Positions 20,900 through 46,010 of a stretch of 57,587 nt of DNA are shown piece by piece. Positions within the stretch are counted from its first letter, which is position 1. Every line of letters begins with the position of its first letter. This DNA is from Pseudomonadota bacterium (GTDB lineage Bacteria; Bdellovibrionota_B; Oligoflexia; Oligoflexales; CAIYRB01): NCBI GenBank assembly GCA_026390435.1, contig JAPLFY010000102.1, positions 1 to 57,587 on the forward strand, in the 5' to 3' direction. The translations under genes and the position numbers were made by a program. The notes beneath the pieces were generated by a model. It saw only the letters and a list, made by a program, of their open reading frames with translations, made no database searches and was not told where the DNA came from.

Positions 20900-21877
20900 T
20901 CAACCTTGATCCAAGGCCAAAAGAAACTCTAGTTCCTCTTTCGTCATCTTTATCACTGCTGCAATTTGATCCAAGGACATTCCGGCGTCCATGAACTTGC
21001 GAATCATCGCTGCTTGGGCCTTCTGCGCGCCCTCATCGCGCCCCTCTTCTCGCCCCTTCTGCAGACCCTCATCGCGCCCCTTCTGCAGGCCCTCATCACG
21101 AGCTTCATCTAGCTCCATGCTGACGCGAAGCATGCCAAGCTCACGAGCACGGGCAATCTGTTGCGCTTCGTCCATAGCAGAGATCTCTTTCAACTTGTCA
21201 AAAGTCTTCTTAATGATGGGATCAGACATAAGGCCCTCGCAAGAGTCTGGCTGGGTAGCCTTCATGAAGAACTCGGCCCATAAATGCAGCCTATCATGAT
21301 GGCCTTGGTGGCCTTGGTAGCCTGACTGCCCTGGGCCAGGTGAAAGTAACTTAGGTAATTCGACGAAATCCAGCCGAAAATGCTCCACCGCTGGCACCAT
21401 CAGCGGCTCCCGGTAGGCGCGGATGATGTGGTGAGCAAGCTCTGGCTCGGCCGTATATAGCGGATGTTTCAACAAAAATATGCTCCGCACGGCTCGCAGG
21501 GCAGGGTGTAGAGCGCCAATTTTGAGTTGGGCACTGTAGACCTTAGCCCAATGATACAGGGCTCGGTGCGGCAAGATCTTGCTGGTCGAGGTCTGCATCT
21601 CAAGGTTGACATGAGAACCGTCATCTAGGCGCAGCAAGAGATCCAACTCAACACCGCGCTCGTCCACTATTTGCCGCGGGACGATCGGGTTTAGGACTTC
21701 TAGACTGACGATGGGTGACGGCGGCGTGATGATGCTAGTAATTAAGTCGATCAGCCCATCGCGACAGTCTGGCGACGAGAGCAGCATCTTGCTGACGACG
21801 TCTAAACAGGGGTCCAGGATTTTGCCAGTGTTGTCGGAGTCGACATTGTTTATCTTTTTATTTCCGTCTTTAGCCAT
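20900..21877 (-). CDS. Rpn-family PD-(D/E)XK nuclease/putative transposase
   Basis: 325 residues from ATG 21877 (GAGG 6 bases upstream); an open frame extends to 22018 without conservation. Nuclease core: DLITSIITPPSPIVSLEVLN, then GVELDLLLRLDDGSHVNLEM with the Asp and the E-x-Q of the PD-(D/E)XK fold. Then a Gly/His-rich segment (GPGQSGYQGHQGHHDRLH) and the family's C-terminal helices. Near the end are tandem repeats of DEGLQKGR type (about 265-300), commonly expanded in this family. Rpn proteins promote RecA-independent recombination and some act in phage defence. An inverted repeat lies in the leader. Confidence 0.85.
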   Translation of the reverse strand: MAKDGNKKINNVDSDNTGKILDPCLDVVSKMLLSSPDCRDGLIDLITSIITPPSPIVSLEVLNPIVPRQIVDERGVELDLLLRLDDGSHVNLEMQTSTSKILPHRALYHWAKVYSAQLKIGALHPALRAVRSIFLLKHPLYTAEPELAHHIIRAYREPLMVPAVEHFRLDFVELPKLLSPGPGQSGYQGHQGHHDRLHLWAEFFMKATQPDSCEGLMSDPIIKKTFDKLKEISAMDEAQQIARARELGMLRVSMELDEARDEGLQKGRDEGLQKGREEGRDEGAQKAQAAMIRKFMDAGMSLDQIAAVIKMTKEELEFLLALDQG

Positions 21878-21892
21878 GCCAAACCTCGCTAG

Positions 21893-21941
21893 ATCATGTG
21901 AACCATGTGTCGTGCGACACAAAACTTCGTGATCACATGAT
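21893..21941 (-). promoter_or_regulatory. Nested inverted repeat in the leader of the Rpn gene
   Basis: Outer arms ATCATGTGA (21893-21901) and TCACATGAT (21933-21941) enclose an inner pair GTGTCG/CGACAC (21907-21920). The element sits 15 bases before the Rpn start and could be an operator or an RNA hairpin that limits translation. Confidence 0.5.
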
Positions 21942-22159
21942 GTACGTGATGAGGCCTGGCGAAAGCCAAGGACATGGACAGACATGGACCATAAGGTAAA
22001 GGACTTGAGCAATCCCACTGTGTGTGATGTCTCCTGACTTTAGCACCCCCAATCGCCAACTTTATATGCATCTACCCCAAATTTTGACATCCCTCCTCCC
22101 ACCTAGCCCACAAAATCCCCGCGAATTTCCGCACCATACAAACCGAAGTGCGCTGGACC

Positions 22160-22204
22160 ACCTGTTGCATAGCATTTAACCACGAGTATCACCTGGCAAC
22201 AGGT
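22160..22204 (+). promoter_or_regulatory. Inverted repeat upstream of the thioesterase-kinase cluster
   Basis: Perfect 9-base arms ACCTGTTGC (22160-22168) and GCAACAGGT (22196-22204), 27 bases apart, 37 bases before the first start of the cluster. Candidate regulator-binding site or leader hairpin. The interval 21942-22159 holds no gene. Confidence 0.45.
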
Positions 22205-22241
22205 CCTAACGCTTCTCTTTGGAATCAGATTGGAGCAACTA

Positions 22242-22652
22242 GTGATAAAGCCGATCCAGTTTAAGACAACGCACAGAGCAAGCTTTCAGGAAATAGATTC
22301 TTACGGGCACCTGAATACTCTTCACTATGTGTCTTATTTCTTGAGCCATCGCTTCACTGCGCTGCGGGAACGCTTCGAGTTGGATATGAAGAGCATATCC
22401 GAGCTAGAAATTGCGTTTTACACCAAGAATTTGGAAGTCGCATTCATTCGCCCTATTTTGGGCGATCAGCTATTTGCGATTAATTCGCTTGTATCAGAAA
22501 AAGGCGATGGTGACTGCAAAGTCAGCTGCGAAATGCTCGACAGTAAAGACCGCACCCTAGCTAAATGTGTCATGCACCTAGTATGTATCGACAAAAATAC
22601 CGGCAAACCAACTAAATGGCCCGAGGGATTTATGGATAGATTTTATGAGTGA
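22242..22652 (+). CDS. Hotdog-fold acyl-CoA thioesterase (YbgC/4HBT-like)
   Basis: 136 residues from GTG 22242 (GGAG 6 bases upstream), preferred over TTG 22230. It starts with the hotdog opening RASFQEIDSYGHLNTLHYVS, where D and the N/H pair match the 4HBT active-site loop (D-x-x-G-H-x-N). SYFLSHRFTALRERF is the central helix. It probably hydrolyses an acyl-CoA or acyl-carrier thioester. The next gene starts 8 bases before this stop, so the two are coupled. It is the first gene of a compact five-gene unit. Confidence 0.82.
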   Translation: MIKPIQFKTTHRASFQEIDSYGHLNTLHYVSYFLSHRFTALRERFELDMKSISELEIAFYTKNLEVAFIRPILGDQLFAINSLVSEKGDGDCKVSCEMLDSKDRTLAKCVMHLVCIDKNTGKPTKWPEGFMDRFYE

Positions 22653-23376
22653 TATTTGGGGAATCGCGATCCCGGGTTTAGCAATGGCCGCTAGTGAGCT
22701 GCCGTCTGTTCCAGGACTGCTGCGTCTTGACAATCCAGAGACCGGTGATGGTCCGCCTTGGGAAGCTGTCGCCTATAAACTGGAAGACGTTGCGGAGATG
22801 CATGCTAAGCACATCTCCACCCTCGGCAAAACAGATCTTGTCATCATGGGCATGAGTATGGGGGGCATGATCGTATCGATCATGGCGTCGCGGTTTCGCA
22901 GCATTCTCCCCGCAAACACTAGTTTTCGCGTGCTCGTGAGTTCTCCAAATTTGTCGTCTAATCAGGCAATAACCGCGGCAATGCTAGCTGAATGGAAGAC
23001 AGCTCAGTTAGGTAACGTCGGTGACTTCAAAAGGATACTCGGCCCATTCTTTTCTGAGCAGTTCCGGCTAGTCTCTGATAACAAGGCGCAAGATTATTAC
23101 AGCTACCGCGCCCTAGGTGGAAACAAACAAAGCCCGAAGGCATTGTACCGCCAAATTGGTGCCATCTTCAGCTATAACGGCCAAAACTATTGGCCAAACA
23201 TAGATCCTACCGAAATGACCGTCATTGGCGGTGCCGACGACTACATACTAGGCCCAACCCATAATCTGGATCTGAAGGAGTTACTACCCGGCGCAAATCA
23301 CCATGAGATCAGCGGCCTTGGGCACATGGTGAACCTAGAGATGCCGGAGCTGTTTCAAAAGGAGCTGTCGGTTTGA
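22645..23376 (+). CDS. Alpha/beta-hydrolase fold protein
   Basis: 243 residues. Nucleophile elbow GMSMGG (about 68-73), acid candidate in GGADDYIL, and terminal His in GLGHMVNLEMP: a full Ser-Asp-His set. No signal peptide, so cytoplasmic. It could be an esterase, thioesterase or acyltransferase. Substrate unknown. It overlaps both neighbours by 4-8 bases, arguing for a shared pathway with the thioesterase and diiron protein. Confidence 0.85.
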   Translation: MSDIWGIAIPGLAMAASELPSVPGLLRLDNPETGDGPPWEAVAYKLEDVAEMHAKHISTLGKTDLVIMGMSMGGMIVSIMASRFRSILPANTSFRVLVSSPNLSSNQAITAAMLAEWKTAQLGNVGDFKRILGPFFSEQFRLVSDNKAQDYYSYRALGGNKQSPKALYRQIGAIFSYNGQNYWPNIDPTEMTVIGGADDYILGPTHNLDLKELLPGANHHEISGLGHMVNLEMPELFQKELSV

Positions 23377-24089
23377 GTTTTAGGGCTAACCATCGTTTGG
23401 TCGAAAAGGTTCCGCTAGAGGTGGAATGGTCCTATTTAGTCAACGAAACGCTTGCCGGCGAACGATGCATTCTGCCTCTTTTAGAGAACTTAGCTAGCGA
23501 CATGCGGCTACCCAGATCTCTCCGCTCTCTACTTCAACAGCAAATTGCAGAGGAAGCAGATCATGTTGCGCGATATGAGGCTCTATTCCATGGGCAACGC
23601 TTCGCGAGCACTGGGTATGATAAAGAATTTAGTCAGTTCGTACGCGACATAGGCCCAATCACATTAAAGCTTTTTTCTTTGCAGGCCATACTGGAGAGTA
23701 TCTCGCTTGGGGCCCTCACCTATCGTCGGGACGCCTTCATAGACAGCCCATCCGAAATCGACGACATGCAAATATTAAAGGACGAAGAGGGTCACGTGCG
23801 CTTTGGCCTTGCTTTCCTTGGTCTCCTACGAGAAATCGACGGCGCAATTGCGTTACCTGATTTTGACGAGATCACTCATGCCTCAAATAGTATTTTCGCC
23901 CGGCATTTTAATGGCTCGAACATTGCGCATTTCCTGGATACAAATTTCGCCATCAGGACTGTCGCGGCAAGTGACATAGATCGAAGTCCAGGGATGAAAA
24001 TATTTAAGCGAATCAGCACGAAAACAATTATCAAAATTAAAAATGAGTTTATCCATCGCTATGTGAATACCAAAATAAAACAAAGCTGA
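23373..24089 (+). CDS. Ferritin-like diiron oxygenase-type protein
   Basis: 238 residues, all-helical. A complete set of ferritin-like metal ligands can be read: E30 (LAGER), E61 with H64 (EEADHVARYE), E108 (AILES) and E138 with H141 (DEEGHVRFG). This fits a carboxylate-bridged diiron centre as in AurF-type N-oxygenases, fatty acid desaturase-like or aldehyde-deformylating families. The particular reaction cannot be told. Its ATG overlaps the hydrolase stop (GTTTGAGTTT region, 4 bases). Cytoplasmic. Confidence 0.75.
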   Translation: MSFRANHRLVEKVPLEVEWSYLVNETLAGERCILPLLENLASDMRLPRSLRSLLQQQIAEEADHVARYEALFHGQRFASTGYDKEFSQFVRDIGPITLKLFSLQAILESISLGALTYRRDAFIDSPSEIDDMQILKDEEGHVRFGLAFLGLLREIDGAIALPDFDEITHASNSIFARHFNGSNIAHFLDTNFAIRTVAASDIDRSPGMKIFKRISTKTIIKIKNEFIHRYVNTKIKQS

Positions 24090-24105
24090 AGGAACCGTCC
24101 TCGAC

Positions 24106-24981
24106 ATGTTCGCGCCAATTAACACACTTCACATCAGGCAACAGAATCTCATTGGATCCAGATTGACGCGATCCACCTGTATGTTTCGGCTGAACATTGA
24201 CTTGGCATGTGTTGATTATGCGAAGGATCGATCGCTTCTGGATTTCCGTGCACTCGGTGGAGACATTGAATTCGATTCGGCGAGCTCTATACTTACCCTT
24301 AGAATAAACCACAGTCGAATGGATGCCTTTGGGGGGTTGTATGTAATCAGCAATTTTCTCGAGAAGACGGCGATAATTTCGCTCCCAAGGACCAACTTCG
24401 GCCAATCAAGCCAACTCTATGACGGTTTGTTGTTACATCACTATTGGCAAGAGGCACTGCAGGCACCGACTTTGACTGCAGGTTCAACTTTTACACAACA
24501 ATTTGCCTCCAACCTGCTAGCAGCTGACCAAACCTTAGGATCAGCGGATATTTGTGTTTCTGCAGACGATCTCTCAAAAATGTCCGCCAATGATATTGGG
24601 GGTAATAGCCTCGGCATCGTAAAAATTATGCGTTTGCGCCTAGCGGCATTGGCTGCTGCGCCGAGAAGCCAATGGACTGAATACCTCAAAAAGCGCGCTC
24701 TTCATTCTCAAAAATCGCCGGCTGCTCCCTCCGGATTTGAACCAAGTCGTGTGTTGGTGTCGTCCATCGGTGATTTAGACAAGTTGCCATGGACCTCGAA
24801 ATGCCTAAATCCATCGAACTTTATGATGTTTCCTACCCCTGCTGAGGGGTGTGTTAATGCGGTAATGTGGTCATCGCAAGGAATCCAAGCCTTAACCGTC
24901 GGTTATCACGCACAAGATTCGGCTAGATTGTCCGCAACTAACGATGCAGTCCTCTCCGCCTGGAGGAAGCTTTTTAAATGA
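24106..24981 (+). CDS. CAT/condensation-fold acyltransferase-like protein
   Basis: 291 residues. Residues 68-77 read NHSRMDAFGG, a variant of the HHxxxDG active site of chloramphenicol-acetyltransferase-like, condensation-domain and alcohol-acyltransferase proteins (catalytic His as H69, structural D73). Near 230 VLVSSIGDLDKLPW fits the S/N-x-G strand of that fold. It has only about two thirds of the length of a full condensation domain (about 450). It may join an acyl group to an amine or alcohol. The stop overlaps the kinase start (ATGA), so this gene is coupled to the sensor. Family call rests on motifs only. Confidence 0.6.
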   Translation: MFAPINTLHIRQQNLIGSRLTRSTCMFRLNIDLACVDYAKDRSLLDFRALGGDIEFDSASSILTLRINHSRMDAFGGLYVISNFLEKTAIISLPRTNFGQSSQLYDGLLLHHYWQEALQAPTLTAGSTFTQQFASNLLAADQTLGSADICVSADDLSKMSANDIGGNSLGIVKIMRLRLAALAAAPRSQWTEYLKKRALHSQKSPAAPSGFEPSRVLVSSIGDLDKLPWTSKCLNPSNFMMFPTPAEGCVNAVMWSSQGIQALTVGYHAQDSARLSATNDAVLSAWRKLFK

Positions 24982-27596
24982 GGTCTCTCGGAAAATCTTA
25001 CTTTAGAGGCACCATAGCCGAAGATCTTCCCCTTGAAATGGAAACTCTTCGCAAAGTTTTCAGACTCCATGCCCAGGGATCCCTAGTCGAAGCATTTGAA
25101 GTCGGGGAATCGATAGATCCCTACTCAATCAAAGACAAGAAGGTAAGGGCTATTTTTGTCGCTGACCATGTACTTCTAGCTGTAAAAATTGGTCGTGGTT
25201 GGCTCGAAAGCAATACCGCTTTAGCACAAGAAGATATCGATGGAAGATGTCTTCTAGAATACGCACGTTACTCCTACCACTTTTGGAACGACCATAACGC
25301 CGCTTGGCGCTCGATATGGCGCCTACTTATGCTAGCTCCACGGTCATCCTGTCCGTCTTTGATCGTGACCGTTTTATTTCTCGTTGGTCACATGCTTTGC
25401 ATTGCGGGGTGGCAGCGGATTGGTTTTTCAATCGCCACGGCTGCCTACAGTTTCTTCATACGGCAAAAAAGGCGAACACCCTCAAGTTTTGCATCAAATA
25501 TTGTCTTTGCTGCTTACCCATACACTCTTTTTGTCTCTGCTAAGATCCAGGGGCTGGAAAAGATCATTCAACCGATCATCAAAAAGCTCCCCAACGATCC
25601 ATACTATCAGAACATCTTTCAAGTCTCGTGCCTATATGCACATGCTTATTCCGGCTATATTGCCCAGACAGAGCTTTATGCTCACAGCTTCCAAAGACTG
25701 TATGAGCAAGAACGATTACTCCGCTATGTGCCAGTAACTCGTATTATGCCACTTTTACCCCTAGCGCTTCGGGGATATAGCGACCTCGTACGACAGTCAT
25801 TTGATGATGTGTTATCAAAACACGATGCAGACTCGACCGACATTGTCATTAACTCACAGTTTTATCGCGCGGCTTCGCTTATTTCTTTATGCCTTGGAAA
25901 TAAGGATCAAGCTCTAGATCTCATAAAAAGAGCTGCTGATTACAGGGAGCAATCTAATTCATTCCAGTCATGGTTGGTGATCGATAATAGGATCGAACTG
26001 GAGGCCAGAGAGTCAAAAGCTTTTGACCCCAGCGTTGATCAGATCATTCGCCTACCAACGGTTGGGGTTCCACCCCAGCTTGCGACAGCATTTATGAAAA
26101 TTATCACAACTTCCCCAACGGGGATCGTCGACCCCCTCGAGTTTCGTAACCAAGTTGTTGCCATTCTTAGTCAGCACTTCGAATGTGAAGGCAAACTCGT
26201 CAAGGACACCACAGATCCACGTGTACCAGCATTAAAGTTGGGTGATGATTTTCTAGTTTTTGATCAACTGCCTGAATTTCGCATTGACACAGTCTGGTCA
26301 ATGATAAACGTCATCGCACCATCGATTAAGGTTCTTGAGGTTAATGTTTCCAACACCAGGGCGATGATTGACAGGCTCGGCGATGCAGAAAAGCAGGGCG
26401 CCATAGCTAAAATGACCCAAATGCTAGCCCACGATGTGCGCAAGCCCTTCTCCATCTTAAAGATGGGCATCGGAATGCTAAGCAACGCCAAAGATCCGGA
26501 CGGAGTCAAAAAGGTCTTAGGGCGCCTACTCCCAGAGATAGATAAAGCCGTTGGCAGTGTCGATGGCCTTATTTCCGACGTTCTGGAGGTTGGGTCGACA
26601 TCAACTCAACTCATCCGGGAGCCGGCAAGCCCTCTGTCACTGATTGAATCAGCACTCATTGAGACCTTTCGGGTCTACCCCAAGTCCAGGATAGCGATCG
26701 GCTATGACTTCGGCCATCTGGATATGGTCAATGTGCATGTCCAAAAAGTCGGACGCGCCTTCTCCAACATCATTGGAAATGCGGTCCAAGCAATGGGACA
26801 ACAAGGAGCGATCTGGTTCAAGACAAGGCAGCGGGATGGTTTAGTTGAATTTTGTATTGGTAATTCAGGTTCCGTTATCCCCACAGAACACCTGTCAAAA
26901 CTTTTTGATACATTCTTTACCAGTGGCAAAAAAGGCGGCACTGGCCTAGGTCTCGCAATCGCCCAGAAGATGATAATCAGCCACGGTGGCAAAATTTGGT
27001 GCGAATCTAGCACGACTACAGAGCATCCTAGCGGCAAAGTAGAGTTCTATTTCACTCTACCCATGGCTGAAGGACATCGGTGCAGAACGACAGCCAAACT
27101 GCCGCTGCAAAGCTCCGAGATCACAACGGCGTTCCAGTCATTTGATAGCGCCTCCCATGCAGGGGACGGCAGCATCGAGAATAGTCACCTAAACCTGAAA
27201 GCTGAATCCCTATCACCACGGTCAGTTTCGCAACGTAAGCCGGAAGTCTTAATCGTCGACGACAACCCCTTCATGTTAGATGCCTGGGTCGAAGTTTTAG
27301 GATCCCACGCGACGGTGCATCGACTCAGCAGTTTTGAGGATCTTTCCACACGACTTGAGGCTGAGCCTGCGTTCATCAGGCATTTAGACTATGTCGTAAC
27401 TGACATGCACTTTGAGGGATCATGTGGCGATGGCTTGGACGTGGCCCGCCTTCTAAAGAAAATCAGCCCACACCTTCAAATATTACTAAGCTCAGATGAC
27501 CCTATCCCCCAAGAAGACCTCATGGGCATCATAGATTTAGCGATCGGGAAGACACCCGTGCCTTTAGCCGAGTTGATCCGCCTACCAATCGCCTAG
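24978..27596 (+). CDS. Hybrid sensor histidine kinase with C-terminal receiver
   Basis: 872 residues. About 1-420 is a helical sensor region with one or two hydrophobic segments (for example LIVTVLFLVGHMLCIAGW near 130-150) and TPR-like helices. Then the kinase core: H-box QMLAHDVRKPFS with H485, N-box SNIIGNAVQAM, G-box KGGTGLGLAIAQKM. A linker (about 695-755) and a receiver follow: EVLIVDDNPFMLD, phospho-acceptor D809 in VVTDMHF. No HAMP or PAS motif was recognised. It is the last gene in a coupled cluster of small-molecule enzymes, so its ligand may be the product of those enzymes (inference). No separate output regulator is in the window. Confidence 0.88.
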   Translation: MRSLGKSYFRGTIAEDLPLEMETLRKVFRLHAQGSLVEAFEVGESIDPYSIKDKKVRAIFVADHVLLAVKIGRGWLESNTALAQEDIDGRCLLEYARYSYHFWNDHNAAWRSIWRLLMLAPRSSCPSLIVTVLFLVGHMLCIAGWQRIGFSIATAAYSFFIRQKRRTPSSFASNIVFAAYPYTLFVSAKIQGLEKIIQPIIKKLPNDPYYQNIFQVSCLYAHAYSGYIAQTELYAHSFQRLYEQERLLRYVPVTRIMPLLPLALRGYSDLVRQSFDDVLSKHDADSTDIVINSQFYRAASLISLCLGNKDQALDLIKRAADYREQSNSFQSWLVIDNRIELEARESKAFDPSVDQIIRLPTVGVPPQLATAFMKIITTSPTGIVDPLEFRNQVVAILSQHFECEGKLVKDTTDPRVPALKLGDDFLVFDQLPEFRIDTVWSMINVIAPSIKVLEVNVSNTRAMIDRLGDAEKQGAIAKMTQMLAHDVRKPFSILKMGIGMLSNAKDPDGVKKVLGRLLPEIDKAVGSVDGLISDVLEVGSTSTQLIREPASPLSLIESALIETFRVYPKSRIAIGYDFGHLDMVNVHVQKVGRAFSNIIGNAVQAMGQQGAIWFKTRQRDGLVEFCIGNSGSVIPTEHLSKLFDTFFTSGKKGGTGLGLAIAQKMIISHGGKIWCESSTTTEHPSGKVEFYFTLPMAEGHRCRTTAKLPLQSSEITTAFQSFDSASHAGDGSIENSHLNLKAESLSPRSVSQRKPEVLIVDDNPFMLDAWVEVLGSHATVHRLSSFEDLSTRLEAEPAFIRHLDYVVTDMHFEGSCGDGLDVARLLKKISPHLQILLSSDDPIPQEDLMGIIDLAIGKTPVPLAELIRLPIA

Positions 27597-29380: not shown

Positions 29381-29437
29381 TCTAACCTCGCAAATCTATG
29401 TCGTTGCAGGCTTCCATTAGTATTCGGACAATGACGA

Positions 29438-29450
29438 GTCAGTTTCTGAC
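29438..29450. repeat. Dispersed 13-bp motif, copy 2
   Basis: Identical to copy 1 (GTCAGTTTCTGAC), followed by CACCCGGG. It lies in the non-coding leader of the AEP-like gene. Confidence 0.4.
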
Positions 29451-29568
29451 CACCCGGGATTCTAAATTCAAAGACTCAAACTCTATTTGTGATGTCCGTC
29501 TGACTTCACGCAGTTGCCGTGCTATAATTTGTTATCCTGAAAACCCACAAAGTCCCGAGGACTGCCAG

Positions 29569-30528
29569 ATGCCGCGTACTAAAGCCACGAATGATTTTTC
29601 TGCCACTACCAAGCTGCACCACACTCTCGGATTGGCTCTGAATGAATTCTCTAAGGCGCGCAAATCTCTAGACCGTAAAGAATCATCGGACGCTTACTTA
29701 CGCGAAACGATCAACTGCACCTATAAATGCTGGCAACAGCTACTCCCAAAAGCTGATAGGAAAAAAGTTAAAGCCAACATCGCCACAACTCGGATGTTAC
29801 GCAAGGTCAAAAAAACTGTCGAAAAAGCGACGATAGGCGCAGAAAACCTGCTCGAAATCCTCGCACAGGAAGAATTGAACGGTAAAAAAATCACCAAAAA
29901 GCTACGCCGGGAATACACCCTAAACGCTATGAAGCATGTTCAGCGAATACTGGACAAGACATCCATGGTCACAGCCAGAATCCCGGTCGAAGAACTGCTC
30001 AGGCCCATCACGGGTAAAGGCACCGAGATTACCGATGTCTCGTTTGATATATACTGCCCCAAAGCTTATAAGCATCACACAAGGCTCACAATCTGGATGC
30101 CGCGGATCATGGCTCATGGAGATCACACGGCGAAGGCGCTAAAAAAAGGCCGGGCCATGCTCAAGGCCTGTGGTGTCAGGGGAGTCAATCAATATGTGAT
30201 CGGCATCAATAGTCGTGTCAATCAATACAAGGAACAACATCTCTTAATGCTCGATTTTGATGATTTACCGTACGAGGATCTGCCCTTGAACGTGATTAAA
30301 AGCGAGCCCGGCATACTGCTGCGAACAGAGCGTGGCTTTCACTTCCTCGGATTACACCTCTATGATCTAAACGAATGGAAGAAGAAGCTCCGCGGACTGC
30401 GTAAAGTGGCGGAGGATGATCATATCGACCTTTCTTTGCAGCGAGGTTATGGCACCCTGCGTATGTCCGCCTCGCCGCGCAAGCCGTTTGCACCGATTGT
30501 ATTCGAACGTTGGACGGGAAAAAACTGA
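29569..30528 (+). CDS. Putative archaeo-eukaryotic primase (AEP)-like protein
   Basis: 319 residues from ATG 29569 (GAGG about 9 bases upstream); the open frame extends to 29398 without a good site. Residues 1-150 are helical and basic (KKVKANIATTRMLRKVKKTV). About 220-319 contain three motifs in AEP order: LLMLDFDD (D229, D231), RTERGFHFLG (252-261, the S/T-x-x-G-x-H motif with H258) and HIDLSLQRGYGTLRMSASP (third acidic D287, then Arg). These match the metal and nucleotide-binding set of primase-polymerase and LigD-type polymerase domains. The short length and helical front are unusual. Assignment from motifs only; a replication-initiator-like protein is the alternative. Confidence 0.5.
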   Translation: MPRTKATNDFSATTKLHHTLGLALNEFSKARKSLDRKESSDAYLRETINCTYKCWQQLLPKADRKKVKANIATTRMLRKVKKTVEKATIGAENLLEILAQEELNGKKITKKLRREYTLNAMKHVQRILDKTSMVTARIPVEELLRPITGKGTEITDVSFDIYCPKAYKHHTRLTIWMPRIMAHGDHTAKALKKGRAMLKACGVRGVNQYVIGINSRVNQYKEQHLLMLDFDDLPYEDLPLNVIKSEPGILLRTERGFHFLGLHLYDLNEWKKKLRGLRKVAEDDHIDLSLQRGYGTLRMSASPRKPFAPIVFERWTGKN

Positions 30529-30910
30529 AGTCGTTGCAGAGCTATTTGCCTATAAACCTTGAGCGTAGTGCTGCGATACGTAAGACGGTCCATACTATTC
30601 CGCGGAAACCGATAATCAAGCAACGCATATTGCAATATATGATAGTCAATTTTGCTGGTTACTATATTTTTTAGTTGGTTCTTCATAGCCTGATTTTATG
30701 CCAGTAAGTGGACTGATTATCAACATACTAGCAATTCAGAGCAGACTGCCCGCAGCGCCTAGCTAAGGTTGTTACCCAGTAAGTAACCGGGTCGCAATGG
30801 CTTGGTATAGCCCTGGTTTACTTGCCGTTCCTTGCAGTTCTTCAGATTTCTCTAAACTGATCTGTCCGTCCGCCGATGAGCATAAAAGCGAGTCATGCGG
30901 AGGAAGTCTT
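30529..30910. other. Intergenic region between AEP-like and NERD helicase genes
   Basis: 382 bases without a supportable gene. It contains a 12-bp perfect palindrome ATATTGCAATAT (30627-30638) and an AT-rich stretch after it. The open frame in front of the helicase (30797-30910) is not conserved-looking and is bypassed by a strong GGAGG site at 30899-30903. Confidence 0.5.
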
Positions 30911-32689
30911 ATGGCCCGAATGTTTCCTAGCTCGTTCCCAAGTAAACCGGCCGCGACCGCCAGTGACGCGAGTGGTCAAAACTTCGAAAGAGCGGTGTAC
31001 GGTTGGTTGCAGCGAAAACTACCGGACACGGCCCTTGTATTTCATTCCTTCAGGATACCGCGCCGAGAAAGCGACAGCCTTTCATTCATCAGTGACGGAT
31101 CCGAAAGAGACGTTTTAGCGGAGATCGATTTTGTGATCGCCAATCCCGGTTGGCCGCTGATCGTAATCGAAGCGAAAGCCGGCCGCTTGCACAACACTCA
31201 CGGGCGCCTATCTCACATGCACGGTCCGAATCATTCTCCGATATTTGTTGCCGACCAGGTTCAACGAGCCATTAATCACTTGAGTCGGTTTCTAGGTGAA
31301 AATATCGCGGGCCTTCCACGCCAGATAATCGCATTTTGTTGTGTTGATGCCTGGAATAATCCAGATCTAGCTGGAGTCGGGGATCTACCAATCCTATACT
31401 TCGACAAATTCGCCCAGCACCTTAGTCCACTTGATCAGCCTGTCATCGTGAATGCTGCGAAAAGTTCAGGCCATACTCTGCTCAGCGTACTCAGCCACGA
31501 TCACATCCAAGAAACCGAACGCCTGTTCACTATTCATGTCGACCGGGAATATCGTCTCACTGCGCAGCGGATCCGTTCAGATGCGGAAGAATTGGGCGAG
31601 AACACTCAGCAGCATATCGACAGGCTCTTGACGACAGAGCTTCACAATCACAGTCGTTTGCTAATCACTGGCTATGCAGGTAGTGGCAAGACCTGGTTAC
31701 TTAAGTCGGCAGCGAAGGACTTGGCTAAGACAGCCTCAAATCATGTTCTGATACTCTGCTACAATGAGCTGCTGGCTCTCGATTTGCGTCAAAGTATCGG
31801 GGACCAGAACGTCCAAGTGTTTAACTTCCATGGTCTCTGCGAATACTTGCTAACCCAACAAAGATTGTCAGCAGAGGTTCCGAAACAATTAATCCGCGCC
31901 GTTCACAAAGACTCTCACTATTACGATGGGCTGAACACAGCTGCCAGTCTGGCGTTAGACCTTAACCCGGAATTGGGGCAACGATTTGATGCTGTAGTTA
32001 TCGATGAGGCCCAGGATTTTGATGTGGACTGGTTGACCCTGGTCGGGCGCCTAACGAAGCCTCAGGCACGCTGGTTTGTCGCGATGGATCCAACGCAAAA
32101 GTGGCGAACAGGCGACCGTGTTCTTTCGCTTGATTCAACGTTACTGACGGGATTTCACCACGTTCATATGGAGCATAACCTCAGAAATACCAGCGCCATT
32201 GCTGACCATGCCACCGCCCACTTCAACGAAGAAGCTACCGAAGATAATGTCATCCACTTGAAACATCCGACGCCAAATTGGCCACAGGGCGCTGCCGTCA
32301 CCACCGTCACCGTTGCCAACCGAAAACAGCTTTGGTCAGAACTGAAACGACAAATCGATCGCCTCATCACCCTCAACGCGCTTAGCCCGGCGGATATTAC
32401 TATTCTAAGCGCTGATTCCCACAAAACACTGAAGACCTTTGATGGGAGTTCATTGCTCACCTATGGAGACCAAGTTGGCGAGTATTTGTTGATCCCCGCA
32501 GAACAAGATGGTTCCGGCATTAGGCTCGACACCATACGACGCTTTAAAGGTCTAGAAAGTCCGGTAGTGATTGTCGTCGAGTACCCTGATACCAGTGGCA
32601 CTTTGAGATATTTAGCATACACCCGTGCTCAGGCTGAACTAATCGTGATACGGGTTGAGGGTGTCAAGTCGAGTCGCAGTGCTGCTTGA
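30911..32689 (+). CDS. NERD nuclease domain-UvrD-like helicase
   Basis: 592 residues from ATG 30911 (GGAGG 7 bases upstream). The N-terminal NERD nuclease region has FERAVYGWLQRKL, then EIDFVIANPGWPLIVIEAKA with D73, E87 and K89 of the PD-(D/E)XK fold. A superfamily 1 helicase follows: Walker A TGYAGSGKTW (254-261), FDAVVIDEAQDFDVDWL (Walker B), IRRFKGLESPVVIVVEY and YLAYTRAQAELIVI (motifs V-VI). NERD-helicases occur on mobile elements and in defence islands. It lies between the AEP-like gene and a tyrosine recombinase, all on the plus strand, so a shared mobile element is likely. Confidence 0.87.
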   Translation: MARMFPSSFPSKPAATASDASGQNFERAVYGWLQRKLPDTALVFHSFRIPRRESDSLSFISDGSERDVLAEIDFVIANPGWPLIVIEAKAGRLHNTHGRLSHMHGPNHSPIFVADQVQRAINHLSRFLGENIAGLPRQIIAFCCVDAWNNPDLAGVGDLPILYFDKFAQHLSPLDQPVIVNAAKSSGHTLLSVLSHDHIQETERLFTIHVDREYRLTAQRIRSDAEELGENTQQHIDRLLTTELHNHSRLLITGYAGSGKTWLLKSAAKDLAKTASNHVLILCYNELLALDLRQSIGDQNVQVFNFHGLCEYLLTQQRLSAEVPKQLIRAVHKDSHYYDGLNTAASLALDLNPELGQRFDAVVIDEAQDFDVDWLTLVGRLTKPQARWFVAMDPTQKWRTGDRVLSLDSTLLTGFHHVHMEHNLRNTSAIADHATAHFNEEATEDNVIHLKHPTPNWPQGAAVTTVTVANRKQLWSELKRQIDRLITLNALSPADITILSADSHKTLKTFDGSSLLTYGDQVGEYLLIPAEQDGSGIRLDTIRRFKGLESPVVIVVEYPDTSGTLRYLAYTRAQAELIVIRVEGVKSSRSAA

Positions 32690-32929
32690 GATTGGATCTG
32701 CCAGGCTTTGTTTGAAAATCAGAATTTCTTATTGTTCCAGGTAAGCCTCACGCACTTTTCAGGCATCGGAGTGCAAACCATCGCTCTAAAGATGTATTTG
32801 ATCTGCAACTCTTGCTCCCTTAAACTAAACTTGAGCGACTCAAGGCTTGACTGTCCAAAACTTTGAGCGTCCATTGCAACGCAATGTCAGAATAGCTGGT
32901 AGATTTCATAGCGGAACTGGAGTTCCTTC

Positions 32930-33886
32930 ATGAACAACCTAGATCTATATATCCCTAAAGACATAACGCTCCCCGCTGTGATTGAAGGATCTGGGGAGCA
33001 CGCAAAGCTTAGATTCATCGATTTCTTCCTAGTTACTATTCGGAACGCAAACACAAGGGCAGCCTACGGATATGCCATCGGCGCATTTTTCAACTGGTGC
33101 GAATCAAGGGGGGTGACCCTTGCTCAGATCAGCCCTATGGTAGTGTCCGCTTACATTGAGCAGCACCCGGGATCCCCGCTCACCATAAAGCAGCACCTAG
33201 CCGCGATACGATGTCTGTTTGATCACTTAGCCACCGGCGGCATCGTACCTTTTAACCCCGCCGCTCCGGTGAAAGGTCCACGTTACAAACTCACCAAGGG
33301 TAAAACTCCTGTTCTAGATCAAGACGAGGCAGTCGCCATACTTGCAGCATGTGACACGTCGACCCTTATTGGTCTGCGGGATAGAGCTTTATTTAGTGTG
33401 ATGCTCTATTCATTCGCCCGCATCTCAGCGGTGCTTTCGACAAAGGTTGAGGACTACCATCGAAAGTCCGGCCGGGCTTGGCTCAGGCTGCACGAGAAGG
33501 GCGGTCGCTACCACGAGGTGCCGCTACATCATGCTGCGGACCGGGCGCTGAGTGATTATCTTGAGGCAGCGGGAGTGAAAGAAAAGAAAGCCTGGATATT
33601 CCAGTCGACTGACGCATCCACCGGACTAGTGACCGGGCGGGCTATGAAGCGAGCTTCCGCGCTAGAGCGGGTTAAAACCGCCGCTCATTCAGCTGGCCTT
33701 GGCGACAAGATCTCAAATCACTCGTTTCGGGCCACTGGCATAACTTTATACCGCAAAGCTGGTGGCACCCTCGATAAGGCGCAGCAGATAGCGGGTCACG
33801 CTAACGCCGAGACTACCAGGTTGTATGATAGGTCCGGGGATGAGATCGCAGCGTCTGAGGTCGAGAGGATTCAGCTCGGTATTTAG
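32930..33886 (+). CDS. Tyrosine recombinase/integrase
   Basis: 318 residues. N-terminal SAM-like core-binding domain (about 25-110), then the catalytic domain with the full residue set: R164 (FARIS), K190, H264-x-x-R267 (HSFR), H290 (GHANAETT) and Y299 (RLYDR). It cuts and rejoins DNA through the tyrosine. GGAG lies 7 bases before the ATG. Length and compact layout resemble XerC/D or transposon recombinases more than long phage integrases. No attachment site repeat was found nearby by eye. It probably mobilised the accessory DNA around it. Confidence 0.92.
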   Translation: MNNLDLYIPKDITLPAVIEGSGEHAKLRFIDFFLVTIRNANTRAAYGYAIGAFFNWCESRGVTLAQISPMVVSAYIEQHPGSPLTIKQHLAAIRCLFDHLATGGIVPFNPAAPVKGPRYKLTKGKTPVLDQDEAVAILAACDTSTLIGLRDRALFSVMLYSFARISAVLSTKVEDYHRKSGRAWLRLHEKGGRYHEVPLHHAADRALSDYLEAAGVKEKKAWIFQSTDASTGLVTGRAMKRASALERVKTAAHSAGLGDKISNHSFRATGITLYRKAGGTLDKAQQIAGHANAETTRLYDRSGDEIAASEVERIQLGI

Positions 33887-38566: not shown

Positions 38567-39253
38567 TTGATGCAAAATCACATCTTGAAGATCGATATCA
38601 ACGAGGATTTACCAAAATTTTCTTCCATTTGCGCGCACTGTCTAAGATCAAGTAGCGAGCCCCTACTAAAGGACCTTTGCCAGATCGGCAATAGACTACC
38701 GTATGTCATCATATCGGCTTGTGTCGGTGAACAGCCCAATCAGGTAACGCTAGATGCCAACATTGCGCTGCTAAAAGATATCAAGTCTCGGGGATTTTTA
38801 TCCTTCCAACTGATTGGTAAATATATCCCAGGGCGCATTAGTTATGGTCAAGATCAGGTGCTGCCGATCACAGAGGTGCTTTTTATGGTGTGCTTCGAGG
38901 GGCAGGTCAGTCTTCGAGACTTTATTCATACCTTCATGGACCTTTCATCGAGTCATGGGATAAAGTCTTTCATGCTTGGACTGCCTGAGGACTATGATTA
39001 CGAAAAATGCTCCGTAAACATTGATGCCCTTAGTCCTGGGCACCACTATTTTATCAGTCCGAGCAACGGTCCAACTGTTTTGACGCAGCAATTTAATATC
39101 AACGCAGTAACTAGGTACCAAGCCATGGCCTATCGTGACCGAAGTAGTGCCGAAGTCGACTGGCGTTGGCTAGGTGTCGTGTCGCCGACGAGTTGGATAT
39201 CCGCAATGGGACACAGCTCCGTCGGACTCAGGTGGCACTTACCCAAATGTTAA
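38567..39253 (+). CDS. Unknown protein coupled to Hen1-Pnkp
   Basis: 228 residues, AGAGGTGC before the ATG. Some features are an N-terminal Cys pair (ICAHCLRSSS), a central region IGKYIPGRISYGQDQVLPIT, then SHGIKSFMLGLPEDYDYEKC and a His-containing turn SPGHHYFISPSNGP. No family could be named. Its end overlaps the hen1 start by 7 bases, which suggests coupled synthesis and a linked role. The last 30 residues (from about WRWLGVVSPTSW) could be a frame relict, since the hen1 frame also reads open there. Confidence 0.6.
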   Translation: MMQNHILKIDINEDLPKFSSICAHCLRSSSEPLLKDLCQIGNRLPYVIISACVGEQPNQVTLDANIALLKDIKSRGFLSFQLIGKYIPGRISYGQDQVLPITEVLFMVCFEGQVSLRDFIHTFMDLSSSHGIKSFMLGLPEDYDYEKCSVNIDALSPGHHYFISPSNGPTVLTQQFNINAVTRYQAMAYRDRSSAEVDWRWLGVVSPTSWISAMGHSSVGLRWHLPKC

Positions 39254-40662
39254 TCACGATAACCAATAAAACCGAGCCGGCAACTAATCTAGGCTACCTA
39301 CTCCATAAGAACCCCGCCAAGGTACACCGCGTGGAACTTAGCTTTGGCGACGCCTATATCTTCTATTCAGCGGCAACGGAGCAGTCATGCACCGTGTGTT
39401 TACTTGTCGATGTGGATCCCCTCTCTATGGTGCAAGGTCGCGGTGATTTGGGATATATCGAGGCTCCGTACGTAAACGATCGTCCTTATGTAGCGTCGTC
39501 ACTGCTTACGACCGCCCTGCATAAAGCCTTCGGCACGGCCTTGAGCGGTCGTTGTAAGGAACGCCCCGAGCTGGTCGAACAAGCCCTAGATTTAACCATC
39601 ACCCTGCCAGTCATGATCACTCGCGGTGGCTATCAGATGTTGACCAGGCTGTTCGGGCCGCTCGGTTATATCTTGGATGTGAAATCTGCGAAGTCAGATG
39701 AAGGCCAGAGTCACAGCCATCACGCGTCGCCTCAGTCTGTGACCATGCATACGATAGCTCCGATTCGCGAGGTGCTATCGCACTTGAGTCTGTTGATTCC
39801 TGTGGCTGATCACCAGAATCATCGCTGGCTCGAAGCTTTTGATGCGGAAGTCATGCTGCGCCGCGCCCAAAATTGGCTCCCGCAACATCCGGAAGCACGG
39901 CTTATCATCAGACGTGCTCTAAAGCACCAACGGCACCTCTATAAGAGCGTGATGGCTAAGTACCCAGACATAGGAACAGGGCCTGACTCTTACGGCGGCA
40001 TCTGGGATGACGAAGACTTTGATCAGGCGGCGGATCATCCCGAAAGTCTGAATCAGCAGCGCTTTGATGCTATTGGGCAAGCGACCCTGGAGATTGGCGG
40101 GAAGACCGTCGTAGATCTGGGCTGCGGCAACGGTAAATTGATCGCGCAGCTAACCGCAAATCCGAATATCACCAAACTTGTCGGCATGGATGCCTCAGTC
40201 GAGTGTGTCAGCCGTGCTAAGGATCGATTGAGCAAGGCAAAAATCAGCCCTCACCAACTAAGTAAGGTGTCTTTTAAGCAAGGGTCTTTGTTTTATGATG
40301 ATCCTGAGCTCAGCTGCTTTGATACCGCCTTATTAATTGAGGTGATCGAACATTTAGAGGTCGATAGACTCCCCACCCTAGAACGCCTGTTGTTTGGCCG
40401 GGCAAATCACTCCGCAATCATCGTGACTACCCCGAACCGGGAATATAACGCTCTCTATGCAGGCCTGGGCGAAGGTGATTTGCGTCATTCGGATCACCGA
40501 TTTGAGTGGAGCCGCGGCGAGTTTCACAAGTGGGTCTCAAGTATGTCGGCAACCTATGACTATAGTGCCGAAATAAGAGACATTGGGCTGGTGGATCCGA
40601 GTAGAGGCGCTCCCACGCAAATGGCGATCTTTCGTAAAAATCGCTCGGAGACCACCAAATGA
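39247..40662 (+). CDS. hen1: Hen1 3'-terminal RNA ribose 2'-O-methyltransferase
   Basis: 471 residues from ATG 39247; the open frame continues upstream to 39166 but family proteins start with MLITITNKTEPATNLGYLLH, exactly as here. The N-terminal domain (1-about 250) has VELSFGDAYIFYSAATEQ. The C-terminal methyltransferase has VVDLGCGNGKLIAQL (SAM) and the metal site EVIEHLE, with a later His in RANHS. It methylates the 2'-OH at the 3' end of a cut tRNA before Pnkp seals it, protecting the repaired site from re-cleavage. Its stop overlaps pnkp (ATGA), the standard coupled order. Confidence 0.95.
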   Translation: MLITITNKTEPATNLGYLLHKNPAKVHRVELSFGDAYIFYSAATEQSCTVCLLVDVDPLSMVQGRGDLGYIEAPYVNDRPYVASSLLTTALHKAFGTALSGRCKERPELVEQALDLTITLPVMITRGGYQMLTRLFGPLGYILDVKSAKSDEGQSHSHHASPQSVTMHTIAPIREVLSHLSLLIPVADHQNHRWLEAFDAEVMLRRAQNWLPQHPEARLIIRRALKHQRHLYKSVMAKYPDIGTGPDSYGGIWDDEDFDQAADHPESLNQQRFDAIGQATLEIGGKTVVDLGCGNGKLIAQLTANPNITKLVGMDASVECVSRAKDRLSKAKISPHQLSKVSFKQGSLFYDDPELSCFDTALLIEVIEHLEVDRLPTLERLLFGRANHSAIIVTTPNREYNALYAGLGEGDLRHSDHRFEWSRGEFHKWVSSMSATYDYSAEIRDIGLVDPSRGAPTQMAIFRKNRSETTK

Positions 40663-43268
40663 CTGTCCTTCAGATCCCAGAATTTGCTTTGGTGTTACTC
40701 ATGGGACCGTCGGGGGCGGGTAAGAGCACTTTTGGTCGGCGTCACTTCTTGCCGTCAGAAGTCGTATCCTCGGACCATTGCCGAGAGATGGTCTGTGATG
40801 ATGAGGGATCTCAGGAGGCCAATGTCGCGGCCTTTAAAATTCTGCATATGGTAGTAGAGGCTCGCCTTAAACTTGGCCGGTTTACTGTTGTCGATGCCAC
40901 CAATGTAGAGCCTGAAGCGCGGCGGCCATTAATTGCCTTGGCTAAGAAATATCATGCGTTTGCCGTTGCCGTGGTTTTAGACCTTCCTGCTGAGCTATGT
41001 ATTGCTCGCAATGATAACCGAGCGGGCCGAGCCCAGTCGCAACGCTACGTGGAAAAGCAGGCTCTAAACCTACGACAGTCTCTCAAACGGCTGGAAAAAG
41101 ACGGCGTCCGCTATGTTCATATATTTAAGACACCCGAGGCCATCGAGAGCCTTACGATCGAAAAACAGCGCCTCTGGACCAACCGCAGAGATGACCATGG
41201 ACCATTCGATTTAATCGGCGATATTCACGGGTGCTGCGATGAGCTGCGAGATCTCTTGGCTGGCTTGGGCTACTGCGCCGAGAGTGTCTCCGTTGATACA
41301 ACTAAAGACGGAATTATTACTGAAGACACATCTGAAATTTATCGGCATCCCGAAGGTCGGCGCGTTATCTTTCTGGGCGACTTTGTTGACCGCGGGCCTA
41401 AAGTGCTTGAGACAGCTAAACTGGTCATGAACATGACCGCAGCCGGCACGGCCCTTTGCGTCCCGGGCAATCATGAAGTTAAACTGCTCAAACACCTAGA
41501 TGGACGTCAGGTGCGAGTGAGTCATGGTCTCGAGCAAAGCATCGCGGAATTTTCCTCGGCACCGCCTGAATTCGTGGCTCAGTTCCGCGAGTTTCTCCGT
41601 GGGCTAGTCAGCCACTACGTGCTTGATCGCGGAAGGCTGGTAGCTGCACATGCTGGCCTTTCCGAAGAGTTACAAGGTAGGACTTCTGGAGTGGTCCGAT
41701 CCTTCGCACTTTACGGCGAGACAACTGGCGAAACCGATGAATTTGGTCTGCCTGTGCGGCATCCATGGGCGCGGAGCTACCGCGGCAAAGCAGTAGTCGT
41801 ATACGGCCACACCCCGGTGCCGGAAGCAGAATGGCTTAATAACACTATTTGTGTAGATACCGGCTGCGTATACGGCGGGAAGTTAACGGCACTCAGGTGG
41901 CCGGAGCGTGAACTACTCTCAGTCCCGGCTAAGCGAGTATACTGTGAGCCCGCAAAACCGCTGAAGATGCCGACTGCAGCAGAGGATCAGCGCAGCGATC
42001 AGCAAGTGGCGGACGATATTCTGGAGCTTGCGGACGTCACAGGCAAGATGCTGATTGAAACTCGTTTAAGCGGTCGCCTCGCGATTAAAGCTGAACAATC
42101 AGCCGCGGCACTCGAGACTATGAGCCGTTTTGGTGTCGATCCACGGTGGTTAATTTATCTACCCCCGACGATGTCGCCGCCTGAGACCTCTGCGTTGCCA
42201 GTTTTACTTGAGCATCCTGCTGAGGCTTTTCAGTACTATGAAAAGCGCGGCGTAAAGACTGTTATTTGTGAAGAAAAGCACATGGGATCCCGCGCGATTG
42301 TGGTGATCTGCCGCGACGCAGCTGCTGCCAAAAGGCGCTTCGGGGTCACTGATGGATCCATGGGCTTAGTTTACTCGCGAAGCGGCAGACGCTTTTTCAA
42401 GGATCTTAGCCTAGAGGCAGAGCTCCTGACCCGACTAAGTGTTGCAGCAGAGAATGCAGCAATTTGGGCTGAGCTTAAATCCGACTGGATGGTGATCGAT
42501 GCGGAAATCTTACCATGGTCGTTTAAGGCGGGAGACCTGATCCAGCGCCAGTACGCCAGTGTGGGGGACAGCGGCAAGGCCATGCTGTCGTCAGCCCTAA
42601 CAATAATTGACTCAGCGATTGACTCAGCTACCGGAAGTCGTGACGAACTGATCAGCCTTAGTGGCAAGCTCGCGGAGCGGTTAGACAGTGTCACCCGTTA
42701 CTGCGAGGCTTATAGGCGATTTGTTTGGCCGGTTCATGGACTTACCGACCTAAAGGTCGCACCGTTTCATTTACTCGCCAGCGAAGGTAGCGTGCATACT
42801 GATAAAAATCATGTATGGCACTTGAGCATCCTGAAGAGACTGGCCGAAGCCGATCCTGCGGTCTTTCAGGAGACTAAATTTCGCTTGGTCGACATCCACT
42901 CAGCTGATTCAAAAAGTGAGGCTGAAACATGGTGGCAAGAAATCACGACTGCGGGCGCTGAGGGCATGGTCGTTAAACCGTGTAGCTTTACCGCTTCGCA
43001 GCAGGGAAAATTAATTCAGCCCGCCTTGAAGGTACGGGGCGCAGAATACCTTAGGCTGATCTACGGACCTGAGTATTTGGTTGCGGATAATTTAGAGCGA
43101 CTTCGGGCTCGGTCGCTGAGTACCAAGAGGTCGCTGGCGATCAGAGAGTTTTCTCTGGGTCTGGAGGCGCTTGAGCGCTTTGTTAGGCGAGAGCCTTTGC
43201 GTAAGGTTCACGAGTGTGTGTTTGGGGTGCTGGCGCTTGAGAGTGAGGTGGTGGATGTCAGGCTGTGA
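40659..43268 (+). CDS. pnkp: Pnkp polynucleotide kinase-phosphatase-ligase
   Basis: 869 residues, the usual bacterial Pnkp length (about 850). The domains are a 5'-kinase with P-loop GPSGAGKST (16-24), and a calcineurin-like 2',3'-phosphatase with GDIHG (187-191), GDFVDRG (240-246), GNHE (270-273), HAGLS (331-335) and YGHTPVP. The last is an adenylyltransferase ligase with EEKHMGSRAIVV (nucleotide-accepting K540). It heals 5'-OH and 2',3'-cyclic phosphate ends and, with Hen1, seals cleaved RNA. All motifs look intact. It overlaps hen1 by 4 bases. Confidence 0.97.
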   Translation: MTVLQIPEFALVLLMGPSGAGKSTFGRRHFLPSEVVSSDHCREMVCDDEGSQEANVAAFKILHMVVEARLKLGRFTVVDATNVEPEARRPLIALAKKYHAFAVAVVLDLPAELCIARNDNRAGRAQSQRYVEKQALNLRQSLKRLEKDGVRYVHIFKTPEAIESLTIEKQRLWTNRRDDHGPFDLIGDIHGCCDELRDLLAGLGYCAESVSVDTTKDGIITEDTSEIYRHPEGRRVIFLGDFVDRGPKVLETAKLVMNMTAAGTALCVPGNHEVKLLKHLDGRQVRVSHGLEQSIAEFSSAPPEFVAQFREFLRGLVSHYVLDRGRLVAAHAGLSEELQGRTSGVVRSFALYGETTGETDEFGLPVRHPWARSYRGKAVVVYGHTPVPEAEWLNNTICVDTGCVYGGKLTALRWPERELLSVPAKRVYCEPAKPLKMPTAAEDQRSDQQVADDILELADVTGKMLIETRLSGRLAIKAEQSAAALETMSRFGVDPRWLIYLPPTMSPPETSALPVLLEHPAEAFQYYEKRGVKTVICEEKHMGSRAIVVICRDAAAAKRRFGVTDGSMGLVYSRSGRRFFKDLSLEAELLTRLSVAAENAAIWAELKSDWMVIDAEILPWSFKAGDLIQRQYASVGDSGKAMLSSALTIIDSAIDSATGSRDELISLSGKLAERLDSVTRYCEAYRRFVWPVHGLTDLKVAPFHLLASEGSVHTDKNHVWHLSILKRLAEADPAVFQETKFRLVDIHSADSKSEAETWWQEITTAGAEGMVVKPCSFTASQQGKLIQPALKVRGAEYLRLIYGPEYLVADNLERLRARSLSTKRSLAIREFSLGLEALERFVRREPLRKVHECVFGVLALESEVVDVRL

Positions 43269-43344
43269 GGTTTTAAAGCGATGAGTCTATGAGCGCGCTG
43301 TTTCGGAAATTTCCTGAACATTCACGCCATCATCAAGCCTAACC

Positions 43345-44049
43345 TCATGGGTGACCGACTTTTGCCAAAAGTTTGCCCTGAGGGCCTGACGTCACTTTGA
43401 TAACCGTCGGTTTATTTTCTGCCTGCCGCCCTTGCCCGCAGATAGACGCATTTACAACCAAAACACCTGTGTCACTGGTCTCAACACCCGCTCCCTCGTG
43501 AATGTGTCCGCATATTACCGCTGATAGACTCGGAAGCTTGGATATCTTGCCAGTCAGTGCCGAGCAGCCAGCATGGCGCCCCGAGTCGTCCGGAATGCAG
43601 TCACGGAGTCCGTGCGGAGGCCCATGCACGATGAGTACGTGGGTACTCTCAGGGATCAGGTCCCACTTCTCTGCCCGTTCTAGTTCATCATTCAAATTGA
43701 ATGCTAAGTTTCCGTACGAAGGCTGCCAGGGAGTGCCCCAGAAATTGATGCCGTCGATAGAGATTCCTTGGTCTTCAAGGTAGATGATCTTAGCGAGGAT
43801 GAATCGGTCCAATACCTCACGCCTATGAGCGCTGTTCAGCATGAGTAACTCGTGGTTACCGGAGATCACGATCTTGTGAGCATATGGTAGCTCATCCAGC
43901 CAATGAATGAACTCCAATGCGTCCGCAATATTTTTGCCGAACATAGTCCAGTCACCGGCATGGACCAGGATATCGCCTGGCGGCATCTCAATATTGCGAT
44001 GTTGGAGATGCGTATCGCTGATACAAACTATGGTGGCATTGACAGTCAA
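43345..44049 (-). CDS. Calcineurin-like metallophosphoesterase
   Basis: 234 residues with TTG start at 44049 preceded by GGAGGAG. Metal motifs: ISDTHLQH, VHAGDWTMFG, SGNHELLML, VHGPPHG and CGHIHEGAG. These fit the MPPED/UPF0046-like branch of metallophosphoesterases that hydrolyse cyclic nucleotides or other phosphodiesters. It follows prfH by 61 bases on the same strand, so it probably belongs to the WYL-rtcB-prfH operon and might process 2',3'-cyclic or 2'-phosphate ends (inference). Confidence 0.85.
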   Translation of the reverse strand: MTVNATIVCISDTHLQHRNIEMPPGDILVHAGDWTMFGKNIADALEFIHWLDELPYAHKIVISGNHELLMLNSAHRREVLDRFILAKIIYLEDQGISIDGINFWGTPWQPSYGNLAFNLNDELERAEKWDLIPESTHVLIVHGPPHGLRDCIPDDSGRHAGCSALTGKISKLPSLSAVICGHIHEGAGVETSDTGVLVVNASICGQGRQAENKPTVIKVTSGPQGKLLAKVGHP

Positions 44050-44110
44050 AATTACTCCTCCTAATCAAGAAATTCTGACAGATAGGCGAAAGTCATGCGG
44101 CAGTTTAGTC

Positions 44111-44740: not shown

Positions 44741-44767
44741 GGTCGACCTCTGTAGTTGAGAGTGTGC

Positions 44768-45901: not shown

Positions 45902-46010
45902 GGATAGTAGTCTCCCTAACGCAGGGTGATTAGCATATGACAAGCTTGGGTCAAATTCTGACTTTGCCTCGTTTAAATGCACTAATACGTACAACTTTCC
46001 CGGCTACTCA

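Follow-up and report, generated by a model that had tools for sequence, protein, structure and literature searches.

Among the described systems that come closest to the one presented here are the alpha-hydroxyketone systems CqsA/CqsS and LqsA/LqsS, in which the synthase gene is clustered with the gene of a sensor histidine kinase and the signal is derived from acyl-coenzyme A (acyl-CoA) (PMC3376566), and the diffusible signal factor (DSF) system RpfF/RpfC, which has an acyl-derived signal and a synthase gene paired to that of a hybrid kinase (PMC4504480). The sensors CqsS, LqsS and LuxN are membrane proteins (PMC3376566, PMC5007282). Here we examined a cassette of five genes in a 57,587-nucleotide stretch of DNA (the window, contig C7 of the 4.28-Mb draft genome G000 from the order Oligoflexales), in which genes for four predicted small-molecule enzymes, namely a hotdog thioesterase, an alpha/beta hydrolase, a diiron protein and a CAT/condensation-like protein, run into the gene of a hybrid histidine kinase. 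As in CqsA/CqsS and LqsA/LqsS, dedicated enzyme genes are clustered with a sensor kinase gene; however, those systems use a single synthase and sensors with six membrane helices, whereas the cassette has four other enzymes and a sensor resembling a tetratricopeptide repeat (TPR) solenoid. The likeness to RpfF/RpfC would lie in the logic of an acyl-derived signal and in the pairing of synthase and hybrid kinase. RpfF, however, has a crotonase fold, which none of the cassette enzymes shares, and RpfC is a kinase of the membrane. The cassette thus appears to vary the synthase-plus-sensor-kinase theme in a new way, with the role of a signal put forward as a proposal.

By reading of the open reading frames (ORFs), all five genes lie on the forward strand: the hotdog thioesterase at 22242-22652 (start GTG 22242, or TTG 22230), the alpha/beta hydrolase at 22645-23376, the diiron protein at 23373-24089, the CAT-like protein at 24106-24981 and the kinase at 24978-27596. 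The junctions measure -8, -4, +16 and -4 bases, which agrees with the spacing, and with the overlap at the kinase start, given in the original prediction, and the five-gene unit is thereby confirmed. The gene set, its packing, its co-occurrence in relatives and the decoupling of sensor and kinase core described below were all directly observed.

The cassette genes recur in two more families of the order, packed each time and with the kinase after the enzymes. The window order is hotdog, hydrolase, diiron, CAT-like, kinase; in the related genome G014, from a third family, it is diiron, hydrolase, hotdog, CAT-like, kinase, with the kinase split across contigs C577 and C651; and in G030, an Oligoflexaceae metagenome-assembled genome (CANGNB010000290.1) of a family other than that of the window, it is diiron, CAT-like, hydrolase, kinase, receiver, with both contig ends cut. 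Of the survey for the same five genes that had been suggested, the recurrence of a packed set was therefore borne out and the constancy of order was not. Since the same set is packed in both genomes, with short or overlapping junctions, the arrangement is not due to chance, and since the proteins of G030 and G014 are only about 20-35% identical to those of the window, the set has been kept together over long divergence. A profile of the sensor region matched 3 of 383 genomes (the window genome, G030 and G014), with the enzymes present in all three, and a separate sensor-profile search of 58 genomes of the phylum returned the identical three. The case named beforehand as refuting, a kinase mostly found without the enzymes, was not seen among these genomes, and enzyme and sensor genes stay linked in the relatives, as in the synthase/sensor-kinase class. 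The CAT-like profile matched the same three genomes of the 383; a fourth match, in G208 (E 0.004), contained internal stops and was rejected. A scan of GTDB contigs for the sensor gave only G030, and because just two narrow patterns were used, this is weak evidence of absence. The viral contigs and plasmids that we searched gave no match. The cassette is rare and occurs in some members of the little-studied Oligoflexales.

This distribution bears on the view that the five are passive neighbours, unrelated genes swept onto a mobile region and functionally unlinked. An Rpn transposase gene upstream, genes of a primase-like protein, a NERD-helicase and an integrase downstream, and decayed pieces on contig C37 of the window genome and in the congener G003 would agree with such a view, but it is strongly disfavoured and we consider it highly improbable, as the set is shared by three families in shuffled order, with short or overlapping junctions each time, and the sensor region was never found elsewhere in the 383 genomes.

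The kinase has 872 residues and is a HisKA-HATPase-REC hybrid, as had been claimed, with a HisKA phospho-His, a HATPase_c domain and a C-terminal receiver. It matched HATPase_c at 1.4e-19, Response_reg at 1e-5 and HisKA at 9e-4; the HisKA and receiver scores are under Pfam gathering, nevertheless the motifs are intact (H485, N and G boxes, and the Asp pair, phospho-Asp and Lys of the receiver). Core and receiver (H485, HATPase, REC phospho-Asp 809), assigned by hidden Markov model (HMM) matches and motifs, are encoded at 26346-27596, and the N-terminal sensor region, residues 1-456, at 24978-26345, both on the forward strand. In the AlphaFold model of the sensor (mean pLDDT, the predicted local distance difference test, 72), most of residues 1-400 form a helical solenoid. 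Because the top Foldseek matches were proteins with pentatricopeptide (PPR) or TPR repeats, Rap and NprR included, and none reached E<=1e-3, we call it a generic TPR-like solenoid. The model makes the hydrophobic stretch at residues 125-143 one helix of the solenoid, and neither G030 nor G014 keeps this stretch as such. The cassette sensors thus have no conserved membrane helix, the stretch is probably not a membrane anchor, and the sensor is likely soluble and cytoplasmic. Gram-positive bacteria have cytoplasmic TPR proteins that act as signal receptors (PMC5007282). PlcR, Rap and NprR share with the cassette sensor a cytoplasmic TPR solenoid, with the Foldseek match weak and generic for TPR; however, their ligands are peptides and none of them is a histidine kinase, whereas the cassette sensor sits on one.

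Comparison of the two halves of the kinase gave the clearest result. Local scores of the window N-terminus were 598 against G030 (35% identity over the sensor) and 118 against G014, and at most 40 against two kinases of the same genome, on contigs C60 and C73. The core, in contrast, is 54% identical to that of C73 and 49% to that of C60, both of which carry unrelated sensors (that of C73 with several hydrophobic segments), 49% to that of G014 and only 29% to that of G030, whose core resembles kinases adjoining sigma-54 response regulators in two other related genomes, G022 and G004. The layouts differ as well: the window kinase has one receiver, that of G014 has two, and that of G030 has a different core, behind which lies a receiver ORF similar to those of sigma-54 regulators. 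N-terminal scores follow the cassette and core identity does not; therefore the sensor, and not the kinase, was inherited with the enzymes. On the simplest account, the N-terminal region goes with the enzymes, and the core was swapped at least once. This decoupling is our strongest evidence, and it suggests that the sensor reads something related to the enzymes.

What is read could be the enzymes themselves, the TPR domain docking them and the kinase reporting their occupancy or flux. We regard this as a quite doubtful alternative: proteins and peptides are common ligands of TPR solenoids (PMC5007282), and the joint inheritance of sensor and enzymes would agree with docking, but the diverging partners would have to keep their interface.

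The reading that we prefer, tentatively and at somewhat less than an even chance, is that the kinase, through its dedicated TPR sensor, reads in the cytoplasm a metabolite made by the enzymes, or else an intermediate of the pathway or a complex of the enzymes. Judging from the enzyme classes, the CAT/condensation-like enzyme would acylate a small acceptor with an acyl thioester from the pool bound to CoA or acyl carrier protein (ACP), the AurF-like diiron protein would oxidise the acceptor or the product by N- or C-oxygenation, and the hotdog thioesterase and the hydrolase would release or trim acyl groups. The TPR-solenoid N-terminus would then recognise the product, intermediate or enzyme complex in the cytoplasm, a step that the comparative results support. 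Binding would presumably switch the kinase, and the receiver Asp would take over the phosphate of His485 and hand it to the host network. The core is exchangeable, sensor and enzymes having been joined to differing kinase cores, and the cassette looks like a mobile accessory unit.

Several points weigh against this reading. Small molecules are bound by TPRs less often than proteins are. The cassette genes include no exporter, importer, ACP or CoA ligase. The fold of the CAT-like protein is a plausible assignment from a motif and a weak profile match. Kinase-bearing cassettes number only three, two of them on short contigs; in G030 the 5' end is cut and the hotdog gene unseen, in G014 the kinase is split over two contigs, and the G014 sensor match is distant. 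Regarding the earlier idea of a signal made and sensed by the same cassette, it can be seen that the sensor domain, rather than the kinase core, stays with the enzymes, as that idea would predict, but an extracellular signal of the autoinducer kind is so far unsupported, since the sensor seems soluble and cytoplasmic, the cassette has no exporter, and self-regulation or detoxification would look alike. The wider proposal of a signalling cassette of a kind not described before, in which a pathway of diiron protein, acyltransferase, thioesterase and hydrolase yields acylated, oxidised signals of a new class for a cytoplasmic TPR histidine kinase, the unit moving between hosts while its core is swapped, is possible, though we would not bet on it. 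If true, bacterial chemical communication would gain a signal chemistry and, in a histidine kinase that carries a TPR solenoid, a sensor type. It would also be a natural case in which sensor and pathway stay together through a swap of the kinase core, so that the link between product and sensor could be tested by core swaps.

The enzyme assignments are of unequal firmness. The hotdog protein is a YbgC/FadM-type acyl-CoA thioesterase by its 4HBT_2 match (E 2e-14), its intact DxYGHLN motif (DxxGHxN in the class) and its profile matches in the PDB (YbaW/FadM, YbgC), in line with the original prediction; TIGR00051 was matched under the cut-off (1e-9), too weakly for any specific TIGRFAM. Its orthologues are 57% identical in G003 and 26% in G014. 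The alpha/beta hydrolase proved equally sound (Abhydrolase_1, E 3.5e-12), with an intact triad (nucleophile motif GMSMGG, and Asp199 and His227 conserved) and homologues in the G030 and G014 cassettes, and it resembles enol-lactonases (PcaD profile 6.8e-11, far under cut-off).

This last resemblance, together with the soluble sensor and the patchy distribution, fits a catabolic or detoxifying role, where an external compound would be sensed in the cytoplasm and degraded or modified by the enzymes. TodS/StyS-type soluble hybrid kinases control aromatic catabolism. However, the set has no ring-cleavage, CoA-ligase or transport genes, its sensor is TPR-like and not PAS, and the CAT-like enzyme points to synthesis or conjugation, which makes such a role improbable, though it is the next rival after the one discussed further below. 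Among known primary pathways, none appears to fit the four predicted enzymes.

The diiron protein is ferritin-like and distantly AurF-like. Its full ligand set, as first read, held up on alignment: all six ligands (E30, E61xxH64, E108, E138xxH141) are conserved in the G014 homologue, and two E...ExxH sets, the pattern of the ExnExxH diiron class, are found in both proteins. A Pfam scan of the window protein gave no match, AurF PF11583 included, and the G014 homologue matched that family at E 1.4e-4 with 21.5 bits, weakly and under the gathering score of 29.6, which is why we use the name AurF-like and not AurF. A search with the diiron protein alone in 96 genomes matched the G003 remnant, G014 and the window genome. 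The G030 contig holds no more than the C-terminal part of the protein, which was found by reading. True AurF genes of relatives were considered as cassette members and rejected, as they lie in separate loci without this kinase or a CAT-like gene. Two of these true AurF loci adjoin an alpha/beta hydrolase and a peptidase-like gene.

For the CAT-like protein (291 residues), a small CAT/condensation-type acyltransferase is a plausible candidate identity. The predicted fold is favoured by the HxxxDA motif (His69, Asp73), which agrees with the superfamily motif HxxxD(G/A) and is invariant among three homologues in a three-way alignment, and by the order of strands and helices. It is less well served by the HMM scans, Pfam included, which found nothing, by a poor AlphaFold model (pLDDT 36), and by hhalign, which gave a weak match to stand-alone condensation-type acyltransferases of related genomes (P=0.048, HHxxxDG motif in register) and no support against a condensation set dominated by nonribosomal peptide synthetases (NRPS) (P 0.27). 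As a precedent, the ham cluster, from which the signal valdiazen and fragin derive, combines a diiron N-oxygenase homologous to AurF with a free-standing condensation enzyme (HamC, HamF) (PMC11659414). However, that cluster is built on the NRPS HamD and has no kinase among its seven listed genes (PMC11659414), whereas the cassette is without an NRPS. None of LuxI, LuxM, LuxS, CqsA, RpfF and PhcB was named by Pfam/NCBIfam scans of the four enzymes, no dedicated comparison having been run. A literature search combining AurF, hybrid kinase and quorum sensing found no such cassette, and the titles and abstracts searched for Oligoflexales mentioned no described quorum-sensing system.

More than one locus of the group couples a kinase to an input gene lying upstream, which is compatible with the four enzymes serving as kinase input. 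On contig C60 of the window genome (328-3857), an SBP_bac_5 solute-binding protein (2e-20) overlaps a membrane hybrid kinase by 4 bases. The pair is like the cassette in its related core and in an upstream partner overlapping by 4 bases, but its kinase has membrane segments and is partnered by a solute-binding protein. In G022, solute-binding-like proteins are packed before related kinases, and its contig C11 carries a row of methyltransferase-like, YcaO, solute-binding-like, TfuA, membrane kinase and sigma-54 response regulator genes, which by gene content is another biosynthesis-plus-kinase locus.

Loci of this kind bring in the main rival, self-regulated biosynthesis, in which the enzymes would make a secondary metabolite (an antibiotic, a pigment or a siderophore-like compound) and the kinase would sense an intermediate or end product just to tune its own operon, the product being no signal from cell to cell. 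Its gene anatomy would be the same as for the reading we prefer, and it is in keeping with the YcaO-TfuA locus of G022 with its kinase and sigma-54 regulator, with an AurF-plus-condensation natural-product locus of the same order of bacteria (G011, contig C78), and with a cassette that lacks an exporter or a receptor for an extracellular signal. On the other hand, the set has no carrier protein, ligase or assembly line, and a 2.6-kb kinase would be an oversized sensor for four small enzymes if it served feedback alone; we judge this rival unlikely, though not remote. The G011 locus (C78:102000-115000) contains an AMP ligase, pabB, pabA, a condensation-like enzyme, a reductase, a true AurF and a small helical protein, called by reading except for AurF and the condensation enzyme, which were found by HMM, and it looks like a cluster for a p-aminobenzoate-derived natural product.

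The only sizeable intergenic stretch upstream of the unit, 22019-22229, is a probable regulatory region, in which no sigma-70 consensus promoter was found. Beyond it, outside the unit, lies the gene of an Rpn-type PD-(D/E)XK transposase on the reverse strand (20900-22018, PF12784 1.7e-24). The GC content of the unit is not distinct, and PADLOC returned no defence model for the five cassette proteins. In G003, a remnant (C171, 3465-5008) has an intact hotdog gene, a hydrolase gene with a frameshift and a diiron gene cut to its first 57 codons, followed by the start of a different hotdog gene, and by reading an Rpn-like gene adjoins it; this copy may be either decayed or mis-assembled. In the window genome itself, a 310-base piece (C37:219-528) is 95% identical to the cassette hydrolase, in reverse orientation and with an Rpn-type 3' end some 110 bases away, and is either a decayed second copy or a strain mixture in the assembly.

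Downstream of the cassette, 29398-33886 encodes a primase-like protein, a NERD-UvrD helicase, which matches the PADLOC NERD+UvrD model at 8.9e-27, and a tyrosine integrase, a neighbourhood that we grade as mobile or defence-related. Further on, ORFs read at 39166-45994 encode a Hen1-like methyltransferase and a Pnkp-like kinase/phosphatase/ligase, after which come genes of a PrfH-like release factor and an RtcB-like ligase, probably an RNA-repair island. Additionally, a tmRNA gene with the tag GNDYALAA lies at 1921-2272 on the reverse strand of the window.

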